Source: Candidatus Zixiibacteriota bacterium
Lineage (GTDB): Bacteria; SM23-81
Direction of reading: 5' to 3'
Assembly (NCBI GenBank): GCA_030628225.1
Contig: DAOVRJ010000110.1
Span: 1 to 7,995 of the forward strand
Length of the DNA stretch: 7,995 bases
Of the stretch, positions 280-7,995 are shown one piece after another. Both the position numbers and the translations under genes were made by a program. The notes beneath the pieces are model-generated. The model saw only the letters and a program-made list of their open reading frames with translations. It did no database searches and had not been told where the DNA came from. Position 1 is the stretch's first letter. Every line of letters starts with the position of its first letter.

Positions 280-3024
280 ATGCGATTTACGACAAAACGA
301 CTTCGCACCGGCATGTTTTTCCGATTATTCTCCTGCCGACTGCCGACGCTCATTTTTCTGCTTACTGCCTACTGCCTCCTGCCTACTGTTTCTACCACCG
401 CCGAACCCATCTACATCAGCTTCCTGTGGCACATGCACCAGCCCATCTACTGGCCCTACGAGAGCATCGTCGATACCGAGGCCGAGGGGGTGTACGGTTT
501 CAGCCTATACACCGTCCACGACGACCGGGTGGGGCCGTATACCGACTGGCCCATCGACGCCGTGGAGACGGGCATGGGGGCGTCCGGCAACGTCGGCGAC
601 CACTTCGGAGCCCAGGTGAGCTTTTCCGGATCGCTGATGGAGAACCTGGACAACCTCAAGGACGACGGCGACCTTAACTTCGCCACCTGGGAGAGCCGCT
701 GGATGGCCGGCCGGGGATACAGCACCACGCTGGGCCATCCGCGGGTGGAGATGGTCGCCTTCGGGCACCATCATCCGATCATGCCGCTGATCGATCCCGA
801 TGTCGTCAGCCGGCAGATCGCATCGCATCGAACCATCTTCTGCGACAACTTCGGCTGCACTATCCCGCACTCCCGGGGCCTGTTCCCCCCGGAGAACAGC
901 TTCGGCCTGCAGGCCATCCCCGGTGTGCTGGCCGGGGGCGTGGAGTGGGTGATGGTGGACAACATCCACCTGCAGCGGGCCTGCCTGGGCTACCCCTGGA
1001 GCTCCGGGGGAGATGTGCTGGAGCCCAACGTGGCCGACCAGGTCAACCCCGACCCGGGAGACTGGCTCAGCCTGACCGGCCTGTGGGCGCCCACCCCGGT
1101 GTCGGCCCGGTGGAGCTACCAGCCGCACTGGGCGGAGTATGTCGATCCGGCCACCGGCCAGGCGCAGCGCATCATGGTCATCCCCACGGCCCGCTATATG
1201 GGCAACGAGGACAGCCGCGGGGGCTTCGGGGCGCTGCAGTACGAGACGGTGATGAGCCAGTTGGAGCCCTACAACACCGACCCCGACCACCCCATCCTCA
1301 TCGTTCTGCACCACGACGGGGACAATTACGGGGGCGGCACCGACAGCTACTATCACGGCAACTTCGACAACTTCGTCGACTGGTTGGAGGACAACCCCAC
1401 ACGCTTTGTCTGCACGACCATCGAGGACTACTTGGAGATGTACCCTCCCGATTCGACGGACCTGATCCACTTCGAGGACGGCTCCTGGGTGGGGGCCGAC
1501 GCCGGGGACCCGGAGTTTCACAAGTGGAACGGCGACACCGGAGGTGGGGGATACAGCTCAGACCGCAACTCCTGGGCCTCTCTTGTTGCCGCCGCCAATC
1601 GCGTTGAGACGGCCGAGGCCATCGCCCCGTCTGACCCGCATACTCAATTAGCCTGGCATTATTTGCTCAACGGACAGACCAGCTGCTATTTCTACTGGGA
1701 CAGCACCCAGCCCTGGGACAGCCACCCCACCCGGGCGGCCAATTTAGCCGTGGGTGAGGCCGATCTGGTCACCGGCTCCGGATCGGACAACGTGGGGCCA
1801 ACCGTTTTTCCACCACAGAGAGAGCCTTACAACCCGGGCGGGAACGAGTTCGGCATCGCCCAGCCGGCCGATTTCACTGTGTGGACCCTGGTCTACGACC
1901 TCTCCGGGGTGGCCGCCTGCTCGCTGAAGTACCGGGTGGACGCTGACGGGGTTAACTCTGTCTCCTCCCACGACAATGAGACATATGCCGGTGGGGCAGA
2001 GGTGGGCTCCTGGCAGAGCCTGGCCATGAGCGGCTCTGATCTGCCGGCGTCGCTGACGGATCCTCAGCCCATCTACCGGGCACGGCTGTATCAGGCCGAG
2101 ATCGCCGGCCAGGAGGAGGTACTGCTGGACTACTACGTGGAGGCCACGGATAGCCTGGGCAATCCCACCCGCTCGATCATCAACCACGTCTACGTGGGTC
2201 TGGCCGGGAGCTCACCGGGGGACACGGTGGCTTACTGGCATCCGCAGGAGCCGGAAGCGGGGGATACCCTGGCCATCTACTACGACCCGGTGGCCGGGGC
2301 GCTGCCCGACGGGACGGACCCGGTGTACATCCACATCGGCCACAGCGGCTGGCAGGAGATCATCACCCCGGATCCGGCCATGACCTATCGCCCGACCATC
2401 GAGTACTGGAAGTACGTCTACGACATCCCCACCGGAGCCACCAGCGTGGATTTCGTGTTCACCGACGGCCTGGGCAACTGGGACAACAACAACGGCCAGG
2501 ACTGGCATGTCACCGTTACAGGCGGAGGCAGCAGCTACGTCATGGACGGGAACCTGGATGCCGGGGCGGTGCAGGTGGCCACAGGCGGGGACATGGATCT
2601 GTGGGCCGGCTTCAACGGCACCCAGCTGTATGTGGCCACCCAGGCGGCATCGTCGCCGGACGACCGGTTCATCTTCGTGGCCCAGGCACCGGGGAACATG
2701 CGCGGCGCCCCCTGGGCCAAGAGCGGGCAGGTGGCCGATTGGGATGCCTATTTGGCCAACGAGGGCCTCAACGGCTATAACGCCTGGTACGACAAGGAGG
2801 GCACCGCCCACAGCGCCGCCGGAGCCTATCTGGAGGGCTCTTTGGATCTGCAGGGCGAATTCGGGTCTATTCCGTCGTCAGTCTGGCTGGCGGCCACCTC
2901 GTATGGAACGGCCGATGGGGGGGCGCTCCTGGATCAAGCGCCAGCGGGGGATGGGGACACGGCCACGTGGAGGCCGACGAGTACGTACAGTTCCTGCTGG
3001 ATTCCACACCGCCCCAGGCGGTGA
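280..3024 (+). CDS. Secreted GH57-type alpha-glucan hydrolase, multi-domain, C-terminus frameshifted
   Basis: This is a predicted exported glycoside hydrolase acting on starch or glycogen-like alpha-glucans. The start at 280 is set by AGGGAGAGG at 268-276. Residues 1-41 form a signal peptide (basic N-region, hydrophobic core around 24-38, cleavage likely near TTA|EP). The GH57 region spans about 43-480: motif 1 HMHQP (51-55), motif 2 GHHHPIMPL (162-170), a PPENSF segment (203-208) whose Glu205 is the candidate nucleophile, and HDGDNYGG (345-352) containing the candidate acid Asp346, with Asp348 where Glu is common. An Ig-like domain (about 525-640) follows, then a CBM25-like starch-binding module (about 645-746, ending FVFTDGLGNWDNNNG), then a sandwich-like domain (about 752-895) common in secreted GH57 proteins. 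From about residue 893 the frame appears wrong; the true tail continues at 2961-3335. Alternative activities (4-alpha-glucanotransferase, amylopullulanase) cannot be excluded. Confidence 0.88.
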   Translation: MRFTTKRLRTGMFFRLFSCRLPTLIFLLTAYCLLPTVSTTAEPIYISFLWHMHQPIYWPYESIVDTEAEGVYGFSLYTVHDDRVGPYTDWPIDAVETGMGASGNVGDHFGAQVSFSGSLMENLDNLKDDGDLNFATWESRWMAGRGYSTTLGHPRVEMVAFGHHHPIMPLIDPDVVSRQIASHRTIFCDNFGCTIPHSRGLFPPENSFGLQAIPGVLAGGVEWVMVDNIHLQRACLGYPWSSGGDVLEPNVADQVNPDPGDWLSLTGLWAPTPVSARWSYQPHWAEYVDPATGQAQRIMVIPTARYMGNEDSRGGFGALQYETVMSQLEPYNTDPDHPILIVLHHDGDNYGGGTDSYYHGNFDNFVDWLEDNPTRFVCTTIEDYLEMYPPDSTDLIHFEDGSWVGADAGDPEFHKWNGDTGGGGYSSDRNSWASLVAAANRVETAEAIAPSDPHTQLAWHYLLNGQTSCYFYWDSTQPWDSHPTRAANLAVGEADLVTGSGSDNVGPTVFPPQREPYNPGGNEFGIAQPADFTVWTLVYDLSGVAACSLKYRVDADGVNSVSSHDNETYAGGAEVGSWQSLAMSGSDLPASLTDPQPIYRARLYQAEIAGQEEVLLDYYVEATDSLGNPTRSIINHVYVGLAGSSPGDTVAYWHPQEPEAGDTLAIYYDPVAGALPDGTDPVYIHIGHSGWQEIITPDPAMTYRPTIEYWKYVYDIPTGATSVDFVFTDGLGNWDNNNGQDWHVTVTGGGSSYVMDGNLDAGAVQVATGGDMDLWAGFNGTQLYVATQAASSPDDRFIFVAQAPGNMRGAPWAKSGQVADWDAYLANEGLNGYNAWYDKEGTAHSAAGAYLEGSLDLQGEFGSIPSSVWLAATSYGTADGGALLDQAPAGDGDTATWRPTSTYSSCWIPHRPRR
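333..392 (+). repeat. Heptanucleotide tandem repeat inside the GH57 signal-peptide codons
   Basis: Two perfect CTGCCGA units (333-346), an 11-base spacer, then five 7-base units at 358-392: CTGCTTA, CTGCCTA, CTGCCTC, CTGCCTA and a degenerate CTGTTTC. In the reading frame the second block encodes LLTAYCLLPTVS, the hydrophobic core of the signal peptide. Because the unit is not a multiple of three, gain or loss of one unit would break the frame, while three units would be neutral. Confidence 0.7.
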
Positions 3025-3335
3025 CGGATCTGACCGTCTCTCTGGCAGGGAATTTGCTGCTTCTCCAATGGGCGGCTGTGACAACCGACACGGCCGGAGG
3101 GTCGGAGTCTATCCAGTATTATGTCATCTACCGGGACGAGGCCCCCGATTTCGCGCCCACGGCAGCGGAGTCCCTGGGATCGACCCCGGCGACCGGCTTC
3201 GCGGACAGCAGCGTCTTCTTCAGCCCGATGGTGAATTTCTACTATCTGGTGAGGGCGGTCGATGCGACCGGGAATAAGTCGTCGGACTCGGGGAGAGTGG
3301 GGGAGTTTGATAGGGAGTTGAGTGCGTTGAAGTGA
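2961..3335 (+). pseudogene. Displaced C-terminal Fn3 segment of the GH57 gene
   Basis: This reading frame continues the GH57 protein after a -1-type shift (one base missing from the DNA, or re-read). It runs GHVEADEYVQF, then an Fn3 domain beginning DSTPPQAVTDLTV, with YYVIYRD, FYYLVRAVDATGNKS and the tail VGEFDREL, ending at TGA 3333-3335. The Fn3 domain matches the C-terminus of the C25 peptidase at about 49 of roughly 100 aligned residues (hand count), so it is real coding sequence. It has no start codon with a Shine-Dalgarno of its own. The upstream frame reads sensibly to GALLDQAPAGDGD (residues 881-893) and then becomes TATWRPTSTYSSCW, so the break lies about 2946-2966, near GGGGG (2946-2950) and GGGG (2953-2956). 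It is either a true mutation, a sequencing error in a G-run, or less likely programmed shifting. Confidence 0.8.
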
Positions 3336-3387
3336 TAGGCAGAGATCAGAGACTCGAGACTGGAGGGTTCGAGGGGGAGAGGAAATG

Positions 3388-3427
3388 AAATGCAAAATGA
3401 AAAATGCAAAATGAAAAGTGAAAAATG
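3388..3427. repeat. 40-bp A-rich intergenic repeat, copy B
   Basis: Partner of the repeat at 27-66 (35/40 by eye, ungapped). It sits in the 153-base gap between the GH57 tail and the C25 gene and ends 61 bases before the C25 start. The rest of the gap shows the C25 Shine-Dalgarno but no clear promoter or terminator. Confidence 0.7.
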
Positions 3428-3488
3428 AAGATCCGTAACGAACCCCGACACCGATAAACGACTCACCAGCTTTAAACGAGGAGGTTCC

Positions 3489-6400
3489 ATGCGCCACAGA
3501 TATTTGCCGGTTACAATTCTGCTGATGGCAGCCCTGTTTTGGGCATCGGCCGCTGCCGGGTCCATCGACCTGACGGTGGATTTCTCTCAGGCCGATCTCT
3601 CTTTTTCCGCCCGGAACGGCTATGATCAGGTCTTCATGCAGGGGCTGGACATCCTGCGCCAGCCGGGCCAGCCCCAGCTACCCATAAAGATAGCCCGCGT
3701 GGCCATTCCGCCGGGAGCGAGGGTCGACAGAGTGGAGATCCTGAAGATGGATCTGGCGGATCTGCCCGGGGAGTACGAAATATACCCGGCCCAGCCGCCG
3801 CAGATCCTGTCCCTGTCCCAGGCCGAGCTGGAGAAGGTCTCCTTCGTCCAGCCTGAGCAGCTCATCTACCGGTCCAGGGAACCGTTTCCCGCCCAGGCTG
3901 TTCGTGTAACCGGCAGCGGCTATCTGGCCGGTTACCATCTGGCCGATCTGGAGATCTGCCCGCTGGTGTACACACCTGCCCGGAAGAAGCTGCAGTTCTG
4001 CCGCAGCATCCGCTTTCGCCTGCACAGCTCACCGGGTGGACGAAAGGCGCGTCCGGCAGGCCGGCGCAGGGAGAAGGATCGCCGCTTCTATGAGGGACTG
4101 GTGGAGAACATGGTGCTCAACTCAGCAGAGGTAAGCCTCATGGCACCCCGGCCGGGGAAGGTCCCCTCGAAATCCCTGTTTCCCGGGGACTACGAGTATG
4201 TTATCATCACCAGAGATAGCTATGTGGATGAGTTCCAGCCCCTGGCCGATTGGAAGGGCCAGAAGGGCATCTCCGACACGGTGGTCACCCGGGAGTGGAT
4301 CGAGAGCAACTACTCCGGCTATGATGTGCGGGAGAAAATCCGCAACTTCATCATCGATGCCTATGGAACTTGGGGAACCAAATGGGTGCTATTGGGAGGA
4401 GACACAAATGTGATTCCCTCTCGAACCGCCTATGCCATGACCTGCGAGGCCTATCATCACTCCAAGGAGGATAGCATCCGGGCCGATCTGTACTTCTCCG
4501 ACCTGGATGGCTCCTGGGACGCCGACGGCGATCACATCTACGGCGAGGTGGCCGACAGTATCGATCTCTACCCGGATGTCTTCGTGGGACGAGCATCGGT
4601 CAGCTTGCCGGCCGAAGCGGTGGCCTGGGTCAACAAGGTATTGCTCTATGAAAAAACACCACAGCTGGATCACGCGCTGCGCATGCTCTTTCTGGCGGAA
4701 GTGCTCTGGGGTTTTCCCGATTACACCGATGGCGGGGTGCACAAGAACATGATCGACGAGGAGTCGGTGCCGCCCCGGTTCGACCCCATCAAGAAGCTCT
4801 ACGAATCCCTGGGCAACGAGAGCGCCGACTCGGCCCGCTACTATTTTAACCAGGGCCAGAACCTGGTCAATCATGACGGTCACTGCTGGTACAACCAGAT
4901 GTCCATGGGCAACGGGTCATTCAATTGTTCCGACATGGATAGTCTGACCAACGCCACCCGCCCCTCTATCCTGTACTCCATCGGCTGCTGGCCGGCGGCC
5001 TTCGACTATGACTGCATAGCCGAGCACTGGACCAACAACCCCGACGGTGGGGGCGTGGCCTTTGTGGGCAACAGCCGCTACGGCTGGGGCTCTCCGGGAA
5101 ACCCCGGGTACGGCTATTCCGACATCTACGACAACCGGTTTTACCATGAGCTTTTTATAGGCGGCCAGACGCACATCGGGGCCACGCTGGCTGCTTCCAA
5201 GGCATTCTACGCTCCCAAGTCACGGCAGGAGAACGTCTACCGCATACACCAGTATGAAGTGAACCTGCTGGGTGATCCGGAGATGCCCATCTGGACAGAT
5301 ACCCCCGAGGTCCTGCAGGTTCTCTACCCGGACGAGGTTCCCCAGGGTCCGACCAGCTTTGAGATCACTGTGACCGACGATGGCAGCCCTATGGAAGGAG
5401 CATTGGTCTGCGTGACCAGCCCCGGTGGTCTGTACCAGCGGGGCTACACAGAGGCCAATGGCCAGATCGTGCTGGACCTGACCGTGCCCAGCCCCGATTC
5501 GCTGAATGTGACGGTCACTGCCCAGGACTTTTTACCTCATCTGGGCTCTGTCCCGGTGATCTCCGATGGGCCGTATATCGCCCGGCTGAAATACTCCATT
5601 GACGATTCCGCAGAAAATGGTAACGGGGAGATCAACCCCGGCGAGACCATCGGCCTGTCCGTGACCCTGAAAAACTATGGTTCTCAGGCCGCCTACGGCG
5701 TCTCGGCCGTGCTGCGGGCCTCCGATGAGCTGATCAGCGTGCTGGATTCCACGGGAAGCTATGGGGATCTGAGCCCCGGCGATACGGTCAGCAGCGACTA
5801 TCAGGTTTCCTTCTCCGGGGACTGCTCCGATGGCCAGATCTTCTACCTGGATCTGGAGATCACCGACGGAGCGGCCCATACCTGGTACAGCAGGCTGGGG
5901 CTGAAAAGTGTGCAGCCCATCATCGTCTACTACAGTTGTATCATTGACGATGGCGGCAATGGAGTGCCGGAGCCAGGTGAGCAGCTGGATCTGGACCTTG
6001 TTCTGCAGAATACAGGTCTGGGCACGGCTGTGGGCGTATCGGCTCATCTCTTTGCGCTGGATGAGTACGCAACCGTGCTGGTGGACTCCGCCGCCTTCGG
6101 GACCATCGATCCGGACAGCTCTGCCGTCTCCGGGGTTTCCTACCATCTGGCCATCGCCGATTCCTGCCCGGCGCACCACTTCCTGCCCCTGCGGCTGGAC
6201 ATAGATGCCGGAGGAGAATATGCCTTCGTGGGCGGACTCCTGTTGGCTGTCGGGTCCCGCGGATTCGCCGACGACATGGAGAGCGGACAGGGATCATGGG
6301 CCCACGGTGGGGATAACGATCACTGGCATCTGTCCACCCACCGTAGCCACTCCGGCTCCACCAGCTGGTACAGTGGCCTGGAGGGCACATGGGGGTATGT

Positions 6401-7076
6401 AGACAACATGGATGCCTATTTGCTCTCGCCGGAGATCGTGCTGGGGCCGGAGTCCAGGCTGACCTTCTGGACCTGGTACGACGTGACCATCTACGGCTCC
6501 GACGGTCTCTACGTGGTGGTGGGCCAGGACGCCCAGTGGGATACCCTGGATTACTTCGGCAGTGGCGGTGCTCTGGACTCCCTGTACATGGGCAACGACT
6601 GGCTTGCCGACGAGTACGATCTCTCCGCCTACGACACAGACACAGTACAGGTGAAGTTCATCTTCCACACCAATTACAGCGATCACGATGCCGAGGGCAT
6701 GTACATCGACGACGTGACCATCTCCGGGGCCTGGATGATCGGCGAGGATGTGGTGCCTCCCGAGCAGGTAACCGGTCTGACCCTGACCCTGGCCGACACG
6801 GCCCTGGTCCTGTCCTGGTCGCCTGCGCAGGACGATGAAGGCGTGGACCACTACGTGATCTACCGCGATACCCTGTGGGATTTTCAGCCCGCCCCGGCCA
6901 ATTCCCTGGGCAACACCGCTGATACATCCTACTTAGATGAGGATCCCGGCCTGACCGGAGATCCGGGCCGCAGCCACTACTATCTGGTCAAGGCGGTGGA
7001 TGCCGTGGGGAACAAGTCGGTCACGTCGGGTCCGGTGGGCGAGTTCGACAGGCAGCTTTTGGAGTCGGCTCCGTAG
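3489..7076 (+). CDS. Secreted gingipain-like C25 cysteine endopeptidase
   Basis: This is a predicted exported cysteine endopeptidase of family C25. The start is set by GAGGAGG at 3478-3484. Residues 1-24 are a signal peptide (cleavage near ASAAAG). About 25-195 resembles the C25 propeptide and ends in an Arg-rich linker (GRRREKDRR, 191-199) suited to proteolytic activation. The catalytic domain spans about 233-602: VLLGGDTNVIPSR (300-312), an acidic, likely calcium-binding stretch (338-349), catalytic His465 in NHDGHC, catalytic Cys500 in YSIGC, GGGVAFVGNSRYGWGSPG (520-537), and the closing motif NLLGDPEMPIW (592-602). The His-Cys spacing of 35 is close to the 33 of RgpB. Accessory regions follow: an Ig/CarboxypepD-like domain (610-690), two tandem CARDB-like domains (about 703-805 and 817-920, each opening with an acidic GNG..PGE motif), a MAM-like jelly-roll (about 925-1080) and an Fn3 domain with tail VGEFDRQL (1088-1190). 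No typical type IX secretion C-terminal domain is seen. Confidence 0.92.
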   Translation: MRHRYLPVTILLMAALFWASAAAGSIDLTVDFSQADLSFSARNGYDQVFMQGLDILRQPGQPQLPIKIARVAIPPGARVDRVEILKMDLADLPGEYEIYPAQPPQILSLSQAELEKVSFVQPEQLIYRSREPFPAQAVRVTGSGYLAGYHLADLEICPLVYTPARKKLQFCRSIRFRLHSSPGGRKARPAGRRREKDRRFYEGLVENMVLNSAEVSLMAPRPGKVPSKSLFPGDYEYVIITRDSYVDEFQPLADWKGQKGISDTVVTREWIESNYSGYDVREKIRNFIIDAYGTWGTKWVLLGGDTNVIPSRTAYAMTCEAYHHSKEDSIRADLYFSDLDGSWDADGDHIYGEVADSIDLYPDVFVGRASVSLPAEAVAWVNKVLLYEKTPQLDHALRMLFLAEVLWGFPDYTDGGVHKNMIDEESVPPRFDPIKKLYESLGNESADSARYYFNQGQNLVNHDGHCWYNQMSMGNGSFNCSDMDSLTNATRPSILYSIGCWPAAFDYDCIAEHWTNNPDGGGVAFVGNSRYGWGSPGNPGYGYSDIYDNRFYHELFIGGQTHIGATLAASKAFYAPKSRQENVYRIHQYEVNLLGDPEMPIWTDTPEVLQVLYPDEVPQGPTSFEITVTDDGSPMEGALVCVTSPGGLYQRGYTEANGQIVLDLTVPSPDSLNVTVTAQDFLPHLGSVPVISDGPYIARLKYSIDDSAENGNGEINPGETIGLSVTLKNYGSQAAYGVSAVLRASDELISVLDSTGSYGDLSPGDTVSSDYQVSFSGDCSDGQIFYLDLEITDGAAHTWYSRLGLKSVQPIIVYYSCIIDDGGNGVPEPGEQLDLDLVLQNTGLGTAVGVSAHLFALDEYATVLVDSAAFGTIDPDSSAVSGVSYHLAIADSCPAHHFLPLRLDIDAGGEYAFVGGLLLAVGSRGFADDMESGQGSWAHGGDNDHWHLSTHRSHSGSTSWYSGLEGTWGYVDNMDAYLLSPEIVLGPESRLTFWTWYDVTIYGSDGLYVVVGQDAQWDTLDYFGSGGALDSLYMGNDWLADEYDLSAYDTDTVQVKFIFHTNYSDHDAEGMYIDDVTISGAWMIGEDVVPPEQVTGLTLTLADTALVLSWSPAQDDEGVDHYVIYRDTLWDFQPAPANSLGNTADTSYLDEDPGLTGDPGRSHYYLVKAVDAVGNKSVTSGPVGEFDRQLLESAP

Positions 7077-7111
7077 GGAATGGCCAGATAGATTGAGAAA
7101 GCGGCAACTGA

Positions 7112-7204
7112 ATGGTCAGTTTGAGCGTGGATGGAGAGAACAGTAAATCGGAACCATCGAAGAAGGTGGGCGAGCTCGATCATCATCTGATCAGGGTCAA
7201 ATAA
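7112..7204 (+). pseudogene. Relic of an Fn3 C-terminal tail (VGELD motif)
   Basis: A 30-codon ATG-to-TAA frame (stop 7202-7204) in the gap between the C25 and M14 genes. Its second half reads SVDGENSKSEPSKKVGELD followed by HHL. Aligned without gaps to the C25 tail AVDAVGNKSVTSGPVGEFD followed by RQL, 10 of 22 positions agree (V, D, K, S, S, V, G, E, D, L), and the stop lies a few codons beyond in all three cases. No Shine-Dalgarno is evident, and the codon three before the ATG side is a stop (7109-7111), so it is most likely the end of a deleted gene rather than a working peptide. The remaining gap sequence (7077-7108) shows nothing recognisable. Confidence 0.6.
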
Positions 7205-7245: not shown

Positions 7246-7995
7246 ATGAAGAAATGGGCAAAGTTGTTCGCCGTCCTTTTCTCTATCGCTCTGCTGAGCC
7301 TTATCCTCATTCCAACGGCCCAGGCCGAGATCAAAAGCCTGGTGCGCATCTACGCCAAGACCCCAGAGGAGATGAGCCGCTTGCCCCGAGCCCTGGATGT
7401 GGCCGGAAAGAGCCGCGGGGAGTGGATCGATGTAGTGGTCACCAGTGAGAAGCTAAGCGAGATTCAGGCCACAGGTCTGCGCACGGAGATCATCCACGAG
7501 GACGTGGAGGCTTATTCAAAAACCGTCAAGGGTTTCTACCACACCTTTCCCGGATTGGTCTCCGACCTGCAGGCCATCGCCGCGTCGTATCCCAGCATCG
7601 CCCGGCTGGATACGTTAGGCACTACCTGCGAGGGACGGGTTTTATTGGTCTTGAAGATCTCCGACAACGTGAATACAGAAGAGGCCAGCGAGCCGGATCT
7701 CTTCTTCATGGGCCTGCACCACGCCCGGGAGTGGCCTACTGTGGAGATCGCCTACTTCATCGCCGACACCCTCACCGCCGGATACGGTGTCAATTCCCAT
7801 ATCACCGAGATCGTCGACAGCCGGGAGATCTGGGTGATGCCCTGCGTGAACCCCGATGGGTATGTCTGGGACCATGACCTGGGACACGATTGGCGGAAGA
7901 ACAGAAGATATTTTCCCCAGTATGGCACCTATGGCGTGGATTTGAACCGGAACTACGCCGGTTCCTGCAACGGCGACCGCGAGGGGGCTTGGGGC
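7246..7995 (+). CDS. Secreted M14 zinc carboxypeptidase (partial, runs off the window)
   Basis: This is a predicted exported metallocarboxypeptidase that removes C-terminal residues from peptides, plausibly finishing products of the upstream C25 enzyme. AAGGAG at 7234-7239 sits six bases before the ATG. Residues 1-27 are a signal peptide (MKKWAKLF, hydrophobic core 8-22, cleavage AQA|EI). About 28-90 is a propeptide-like region, and the M14 domain begins near YHTFPGLVSDLQAIA (98-112). Zinc ligands His159 and Glu162 lie in HHAREW. VNPDGYVW (201-208) is the conserved core, Arg217 in DWRKNRR is the candidate equivalent of Arg127 of bovine carboxypeptidase A, and Asn234-Arg235 in GVDLNRNY match its Asn144-Arg145 substrate-binding pair. 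The third zinc ligand (His196 equivalent) and the catalytic Glu270 equivalent lie beyond the window. The gene starts 169 bases after the C25 stop on the same strand. Confidence 0.94.
   Translation, partial: MKKWAKLFAVLFSIALLSLILIPTAQAEIKSLVRIYAKTPEEMSRLPRALDVAGKSRGEWIDVVVTSEKLSEIQATGLRTEIIHEDVEAYSKTVKGFYHTFPGLVSDLQAIAASYPSIARLDTLGTTCEGRVLLVLKISDNVNTEEASEPDLFFMGLHHAREWPTVEIAYFIADTLTAGYGVNSHITEIVDSREIWVMPCVNPDGYVWDHDLGHDWRKNRRYFPQYGTYGVDLNRNYAGSCNGDREGAWG

Follow-up and report, generated by a model that had tools for sequence, protein, structure and literature searches.

An Fn3 module ending in VGEFD on secreted enzymes of SM23-81 and other bacterial lineages: a candidate C-terminal sorting or surface-attachment domain

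The C-terminal domain (CTD) of the type IX secretion system (T9SS) and the PEP-CTERM signal are C-terminal address domains, and each has brought a new system of secretion or anchoring to light. The T9SS CTD is a C-terminal beta-sandwich with its export signal in the last 22 residues (PMC4804311), and PEP-CTERM was recognized by its several-per-genome-or-none pattern (PMC1569441). Here, we describe an Fn3 domain with a terminal VGEFD motif (the tail), first noticed on 7995 bases of DNA from a Candidatus Zixiibacteriota bacterium of the SM23-81 lineage (GenBank assembly GCA_030628225.1, contig DAOVRJ010000110.1, forward strand; hereafter the window), in which a GH57 glycoside hydrolase gene and a C25 peptidase gene both end in it. 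The window is the whole of contig C301 in a metagenome-assembled genome (MAG; G000, 2.34 Mb in 306 contigs). We put at about one half the probability that Fn3 with a terminal VGEFD[F/K/R]xL is a C-terminal sorting or surface-attachment domain, because it is terminal, present in one copy per protein, carried by diverse proteins with signal peptides, exchanged with T9SS domains, found many times in a genome or not at all, and under selection as protein sequence. On our best reading the tail works like a T9SS domain but is not one, belonging neither to T9SS nor to the CTERM signals.

A terminal module on diverse secreted proteins

The two tails lie where the first-pass annotation had drawn them, one in the frame 2967-3335 and the other at the end of the C25 open reading frame (ORF), and its hand count of about 49 agreeing residues is borne out by an alignment with 50/105 identities (E = 6e-29). 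The genes and modules concerned are as follows.

280..3024, + strand: GH57 glycoside hydrolase with a CBM25/53-like module and an N-terminal signal peptide (Pfam Glyco_hydro_57, 1.2e-8; CBM_25, 2e-5).
3006..3332 (frame 2967-3335), + strand: Fn3 + VGEFD tail module of the GH57 gene (profile match, 3.6e-42).
3297..3320, + strand: VGEFDREL motif of the GH57 tail, with the stop 4 residues on (from the sequence).
3489..7076, + strand: secreted C25 (gingipain-type) peptidase with a C25 propeptide, a MAM/choice-of-anchor-J-like domain and the tail at its end (Peptidase_C25, 7.5e-61; choice_anch_J, 8e-8).
6759..7073, + strand: Fn3 + VGEFD tail module of the C25 peptidase (profile matches, AlphaFold2 Fn3 sandwich, PDB Fn3 matches).
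7035..7058, + strand: VGEFDRQL motif of the C25 tail, with the stop 5 residues on (from the sequence).

Because the tail profile is blind to the stop codon, the position of its matches is a fair test of terminality. With this profile, an exact GEFD lies no more than 40 residues from the stop in 58/58 tails of the SM23-81 family, 40/43 of Anaerolineae and 4/4 of an Eisenbacteria-like pair of genomes; a plain text search for xGEFD in the examined ORFs places 108 of 117 matches within 40 residues of the stop and nine elsewhere, three of the nine outside Fn3. The tail end reads GEFD[RK]xL plus 1 to 22 residues in the SM23-81 family, and in Anaerolineae it is usually GEFDFxLxPG followed by one or two more residues; no hydrophobic stretch follows the motif, and the stop mostly comes 1-22 residues on. 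The tail is present as one module per protein, even behind other Fn3 domains (L048, L143, L154, L186), and terminal Fn3 domains in other genomes lack GEFD (e.g. L293, L298, L322), so the motif is not simply a requirement of a terminal Fn3. The outcome that had been named as fatal to the idea of a signal, a motif equally common in internal Fn3 domains, was therefore not seen. The placement at the extreme C-terminus proposed in the first-pass annotation stands as a concentration there, but not as a strict rule, a minority of GEYDY and GEFDY forms being internal.

With a 126-sequence alignment, AlphaFold2 gave an Fn3 sandwich with a mean predicted local distance difference test score (pLDDT) of 95.3 (with 22 sequences the model was poor, pLDDT 61). 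In the model the last strand comprises V-G only, and from E-F-D onward the chain is ordered but non-strand, with a mean pLDDT of 82 over the last ten residues. The nearest PDB folds are Fn3 domains, such as that of chitinase A1 (1k85; 29% identity, E = 3e-5), and Pfam fn3 matches the tail weakly (0.015-0.025, below the cut-off); the module is thus predicted to have the Fn3 fold. The four most conserved columns are W25, Y37, Y80 and F101, with G99, D102 and E100 within the top fifteen, so that the motif residues F101, G99, D102 and E100 are conserved on the level of Fn3 core residues. The GEFD codons vary freely (20 distinct 12-mers in 58 tails), which indicates that selection maintains the protein sequence. 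For this reason, and because only one other copy in the window's own genome was matched at the DNA level (77%), neither recent copying nor gene conversion was accepted as the cause of the conservation.

The confident sandwich with its ordered motif, and PDB neighbors that are ordinary Fn3 domains, would also suit a plain terminal Fn3 subfamily in which VGEFD serves as a structural cap and locks the chain end, spread by shuffling within lineages and stabilizing or spacing the enzyme without giving it an address. The motif need not stand at the chain end either, since Fn3 domains of this type are also found within proteins, followed by another domain, and the search for machinery described below found none. 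We nevertheless consider this explanation, the chief rival, less likely, as it leaves unaccounted for the terminal Fn3 domains that lack the motif, the single copy even behind other Fn3 domains, the conservation of the chain end across phyla, and the exchange, seen in several proteins, with a T9SS CTD at a single boundary.

The carriers are very diverse in their domains and almost always have a signal peptide, which supports the first-pass annotation on both points. In the SM23-81 family, 61 tailed proteins match 56 Pfam families, with C25 and S8 peptidases foremost and amidase, PAD, endonuclease, PLD, amylase and FG-GAP proteins among the others; 62 tailed proteins of other groups match 62 families. 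By a simple rule, a signal peptide was found in 43/49 family and 33/34 other-group tailed proteins, against 59/147 control ORFs. Three of the six family proteins that missed are genes with an in-frame TGA, and the upstream frame has the signal peptide.

Tailed Omp28/thioredoxin-like proteins have an in-frame TGA at a UxxC position right after the signal peptide, in L046 (G000:C134, 103-1083) and in two genes of L156 (G001:C53), in the contexts FTSCY-U-GAC, FTNCY-U-GAC and FTSTM-U-FDC. They are probable selenoproteins; tRNA-Sec was found in all four phylum genomes (73-79 bits).

The window's own genome contains 27 further tail matches with E < 1e-4, far beyond chance. A profile of 22 tails (A2) gave 34 matches there; the family has a single other genome, candidate division Zixibacteria bacterium SM23_81 (G001), which gave 48. 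Across the two the tail is present on >60 proteins; in two sister-family genomes (G002, G003), the Fn3 matches of this profile end before the motif. A contig profile search revealed C-terminal tails also in Anaerolineae and Caldilineales (Chloroflexi) and in MAGs labelled Fermentibacteria and Eisenbacteria; that search used a sub-alignment with [ED]SNRVGEF, so the motif is present in the named matches by construction, whereas the terminal position is not. In those other-group genomes a cross-phylum profile gave 12-87 matches per genome, including 12-64 in each of six Anaerolineae genomes. Among 386 genomes sampled from the domain and searched with a tail-only profile, four have at least 20 tails (G297, one of the four, is apparently identical to the G037 assembly); the remaining matches comprise three genomes with few internal forms and, otherwise, Fn3 fragments ending before the motif. 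Among 150 genomes from the same class as one of the Anaerolineae carriers, 4-25 tails are present in eight, 2 in one and none in 134. Tail copies per genome therefore tend to be many or none, as is typical of a sorting signal.

Exchange with T9SS domains and the search for a partner

In the sister-family genomes, the C25 peptidases have a T9SS CTD at their end. The part of the window C25 protein that precedes the tail (residues 1-1104 of 1104) is 49.8% identical to L275 of G003 and L273 of G002, and the same 1104 residues are 42.7-43.8% identical to L272, to the own-genome paralogue L260 and to the SM23_81 paralogue L266; in all five, the T9SS domain starts at the same boundary as the window C25 tail. 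On SM23_81 contig C46, two adjacent amylase paralogues share 63.9% identity across 734 residues; a GEFD tail ends one of them and a T9SS domain the other, and a third swap pair is present on SM23_81 contig C42 (43%). Both tails in one protein were found in 0/109 tailed proteins. The swaps at a shared boundary, together with the lack of any protein with both, establish that the GEFD tail and the T9SS domain are alternatives at one place in the protein. Bin contamination was rejected, because GEFD tails and T9SS CTDs share G001 contigs C46, C42 and C85.

Such replacement of CTDs in close homologues, by a domain that is likewise an Ig-type sandwich, raises the question of whether the T9SS translocon of T9SS lineages reads Fn3-GEFD as a further signal of its own, with a related domain put to another use in Anaerolineae. 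SprA and 56-144 T9SS domains each are indeed present in the SM23-81, sister-family and Eisenbacteria-like genomes (G000-G003, G037, G038), including the tail-bearing G000, G001, G037 and G038. However, six of six tail-bearing Anaerolineae genomes, those with the 12-64 profile matches, contain 0 SprA and 0 T9SS CTDs, and G002 and G003 have T9SS but no tail. Neither the window C25 protein (E up to 1) nor any of five tails (E up to 5) matches the type A CTD model, TIGR04183. On balance we consider a further T9SS signal improbable, and T9SS as a general reader of the tail is rejected by the Anaerolineae.

No other candidate fared better. A PorU-like C25 peptidase was rejected as the processing enzyme, since G036 has the tail but no C25, and sortase and exosortase were rejected as partners, being missing from several carriers (sortase from tail-bearing G000, G001, G033, G037, G038 and G532; exosortase from tail-bearing G001, G033, G034, G037 and G038). 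A literature search returned no relevant paper for VGEFD, and nothing was found that links Chloroflexi/Anaerolineae or Zixibacteria to sorting signals. The earlier impression that the tail matches no known signal is upheld by this result and by the lack of TIGR04183 hits.

Missing machinery, and carriers in phyla with different envelopes, could be accounted for if the tail bound a surface glycan or exopolysaccharide directly and anchored its protein without a dedicated protein receptor; the carriers are, moreover, enzymes that would be useful at a surface. Against this, the tail matches no carbohydrate-binding family, and the conserved part is the chain end plus core residues and not, as far as can be judged from sequence, an exposed aromatic platform. 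Direct glycan binding therefore appears very improbable.

Several observations weigh against a sorting or surface-attachment domain. For each of SprA, C25, sortase and exosortase there are genomes with the tail that lack it, so that none of the known readers or processing enzymes suits all carriers, and no receptor or protease was found; among 177 + 129 ORFs, no gene neighbors tailed genes in both lineages. The lineages of the carriers differ in envelope, so that one mechanism must fit all. A lineage-specific domain expansion could also yield the many-or-none pattern. Finally, not all GEFD/GEYD Fn3 domains are terminal: a minority precede a terminal domain of ∼180 residues or an RHS core. In every testable respect except the partner, the tail nonetheless shows the signature of a sorting domain. 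The sorting or anchoring role proposed in the first-pass annotation thus retains its terminal position, signal peptides and diverse carriers, and gains the T9SS swap, whereas no dedicated protease or translocon that co-occurs was found among SprA, C25/PorU, sortase and exosortase.

The internal GEYDY/GEFDY forms are present in the window's own genome (C47, C9), in SM23_81 and in several unrelated genomes. The domain that follows them is specific and terminal, with ∼165-195 residues, two repeats and often WP at its end. The repeats are ∼85 residues each (NxIxxPL...ASDL...I...C.AV..W) and occur in several phyla (L047, L051, L166, L282, L284, L305, L317), and Thermoplasmata-type archaea (L095, L097, L099) have a looser, WNLVS-type version of the terminal domain after a KVGKF Fn3. 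In Anaerolineae L117 and L122, the GEFDF-Fn3 stands directly before an RHS core-like region, YDADGNRVKGTVNG. Some Anaerolineae secreted proteins (L241, L243, L322 and others) end instead in [YH]LP[VM][VI], possibly another terminal signal; the YLPLV end motif is present in 2/337 ORFs of the examined loci, too rare there to judge.

If the tail is a sorting or surface-attachment domain, a Sec signal peptide would take the protein across the inner membrane and the C-terminal Fn3 would then fold, with its last segment departing from the usual G strand after V-G and held in place. A putative receptor outside the cytoplasm would read this segment and either retain the enzyme at the cell surface or pass it on. 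In lineages with T9SS the tail takes the place of the T9SS CTD on enzymes that are otherwise collinear; Anaerolineae would use it for the same job without T9SS. Sorting, recognition, destination and the existence of a receptor are all things that we infer. More tentatively, a single undescribed sorting system, common to SM23-81, Eisenbacteria-type bacteria and Anaerolineae, may read the folded Fn3 ending in VGEFD[F/K/R]xL and compete with or replace T9SS for the same surface enzymes.

Other features of the window

The GH57 ORF at 280-3024 and its tail are in different frames, and no signal peptide is encoded in the tail frame itself; the gene is therefore probably frameshifted near 2950, by a sequencing error or a real mutation. 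Two further features follow the C25 gene.

7112..7204, + strand: decayed tail remnant, with VGELDHHL at 7166-7189 and a stop at 7202-7204 (15.6 bits to the tail-only profile; frames with stops).
7246..7995, + strand: M14 zinc carboxypeptidase with a signal peptide, cut by the contig end (Peptidase_M14, 4.2e-37).

The remnant, VDGENSKSEPSKKVGELDHHLIRVK*, was compared with 11,690 six-frame chunks of related DNA: only intact tails outscore it, the best of the other chunks reaching 13.9 and 11.4 bits. The third copy noted in the first reading is real but weak, a decayed remnant. Tail-only short ORFs (31-59 aa) resembling it are present at G001:C53:9901-10041, G001:C87:2216-2353, G297:C216 and C268, G532:C314 and G034:C233; they represent either degenerate genes or interrupted frames in the neighborhood of tailed genes.

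On contig C300 of G000, a 5′-open ORF resembles the rest of an M14 protein and has the same tail at its end, NRVGEFDAELINALPK; the next gene on C300 is likewise tailed. The window M14 gene probably continues there, a join inferred with no sequence overlap found. An AT-rich repeat, AATGCAAAATGAAAAATGCAAAATGAAAAGTGAAAAATG, lies at window positions 3384-3430; more than 45 similar copies are spread over many contigs of the genome, in part as inverted pairs. No RNA family was found in the window.

Meaning and comparison with known systems

Dozens of secreted proteins from uncultured lineages (proteases, amylases, nucleases and adhesin-like proteins) thus bear an unnamed C-terminal module. Among these lineages are Anaerolineae, for which little is known of how exoenzymes stay at the surface. 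The profile of the module offers a prediction of the surface proteome and a receptor hunt by phylogenetic profiling. Whether two tails on one kind of enzyme mean two routes or two places is a question made testable by the tail/T9SS swaps in near-identical proteins.

Compared with the bacterial Fn3 of chitinase A1 type (PDB 1k85), the tail has the same fold and shares the core W, Y, R and Y, but its chain departs from the G strand after V-G, has an ordered GEFDxxL end and is almost wholly C-terminal. The pattern of the tail is the same as that of PEP-CTERM (PMC1569441): PEP-CTERM/exosortase, GlyGly-CTERM and MYXO-CTERM are likewise present several times per genome or not at all, on signal-peptide carriers and diverse proteins, sporadically across phyla (PMC1569441, PMC3237569, PMC11980579). 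In contrast to PEP-CTERM, LPXTG and GlyGly-CTERM, however, the tail has neither a hydrophobic helix nor a basic end after its motif. The closest parallel in working is the T9SS type A CTD (TIGR04183/Por_Secre_tail), an Ig-type sandwich with its export signal in the last 22 residues. Both are C-terminal Ig-type beta-sandwiches on signal-peptide carriers with diverse domains, both number dozens per genome with a conserved extreme end, and both occupy the same place in homologous proteins (PMC4804311). They differ in that the tail is an Fn3 with a VGEFD end in place of the YPNP...K end, matches no CTD model, and occurs in Anaerolineae that have neither SprA nor T9SS CTDs.

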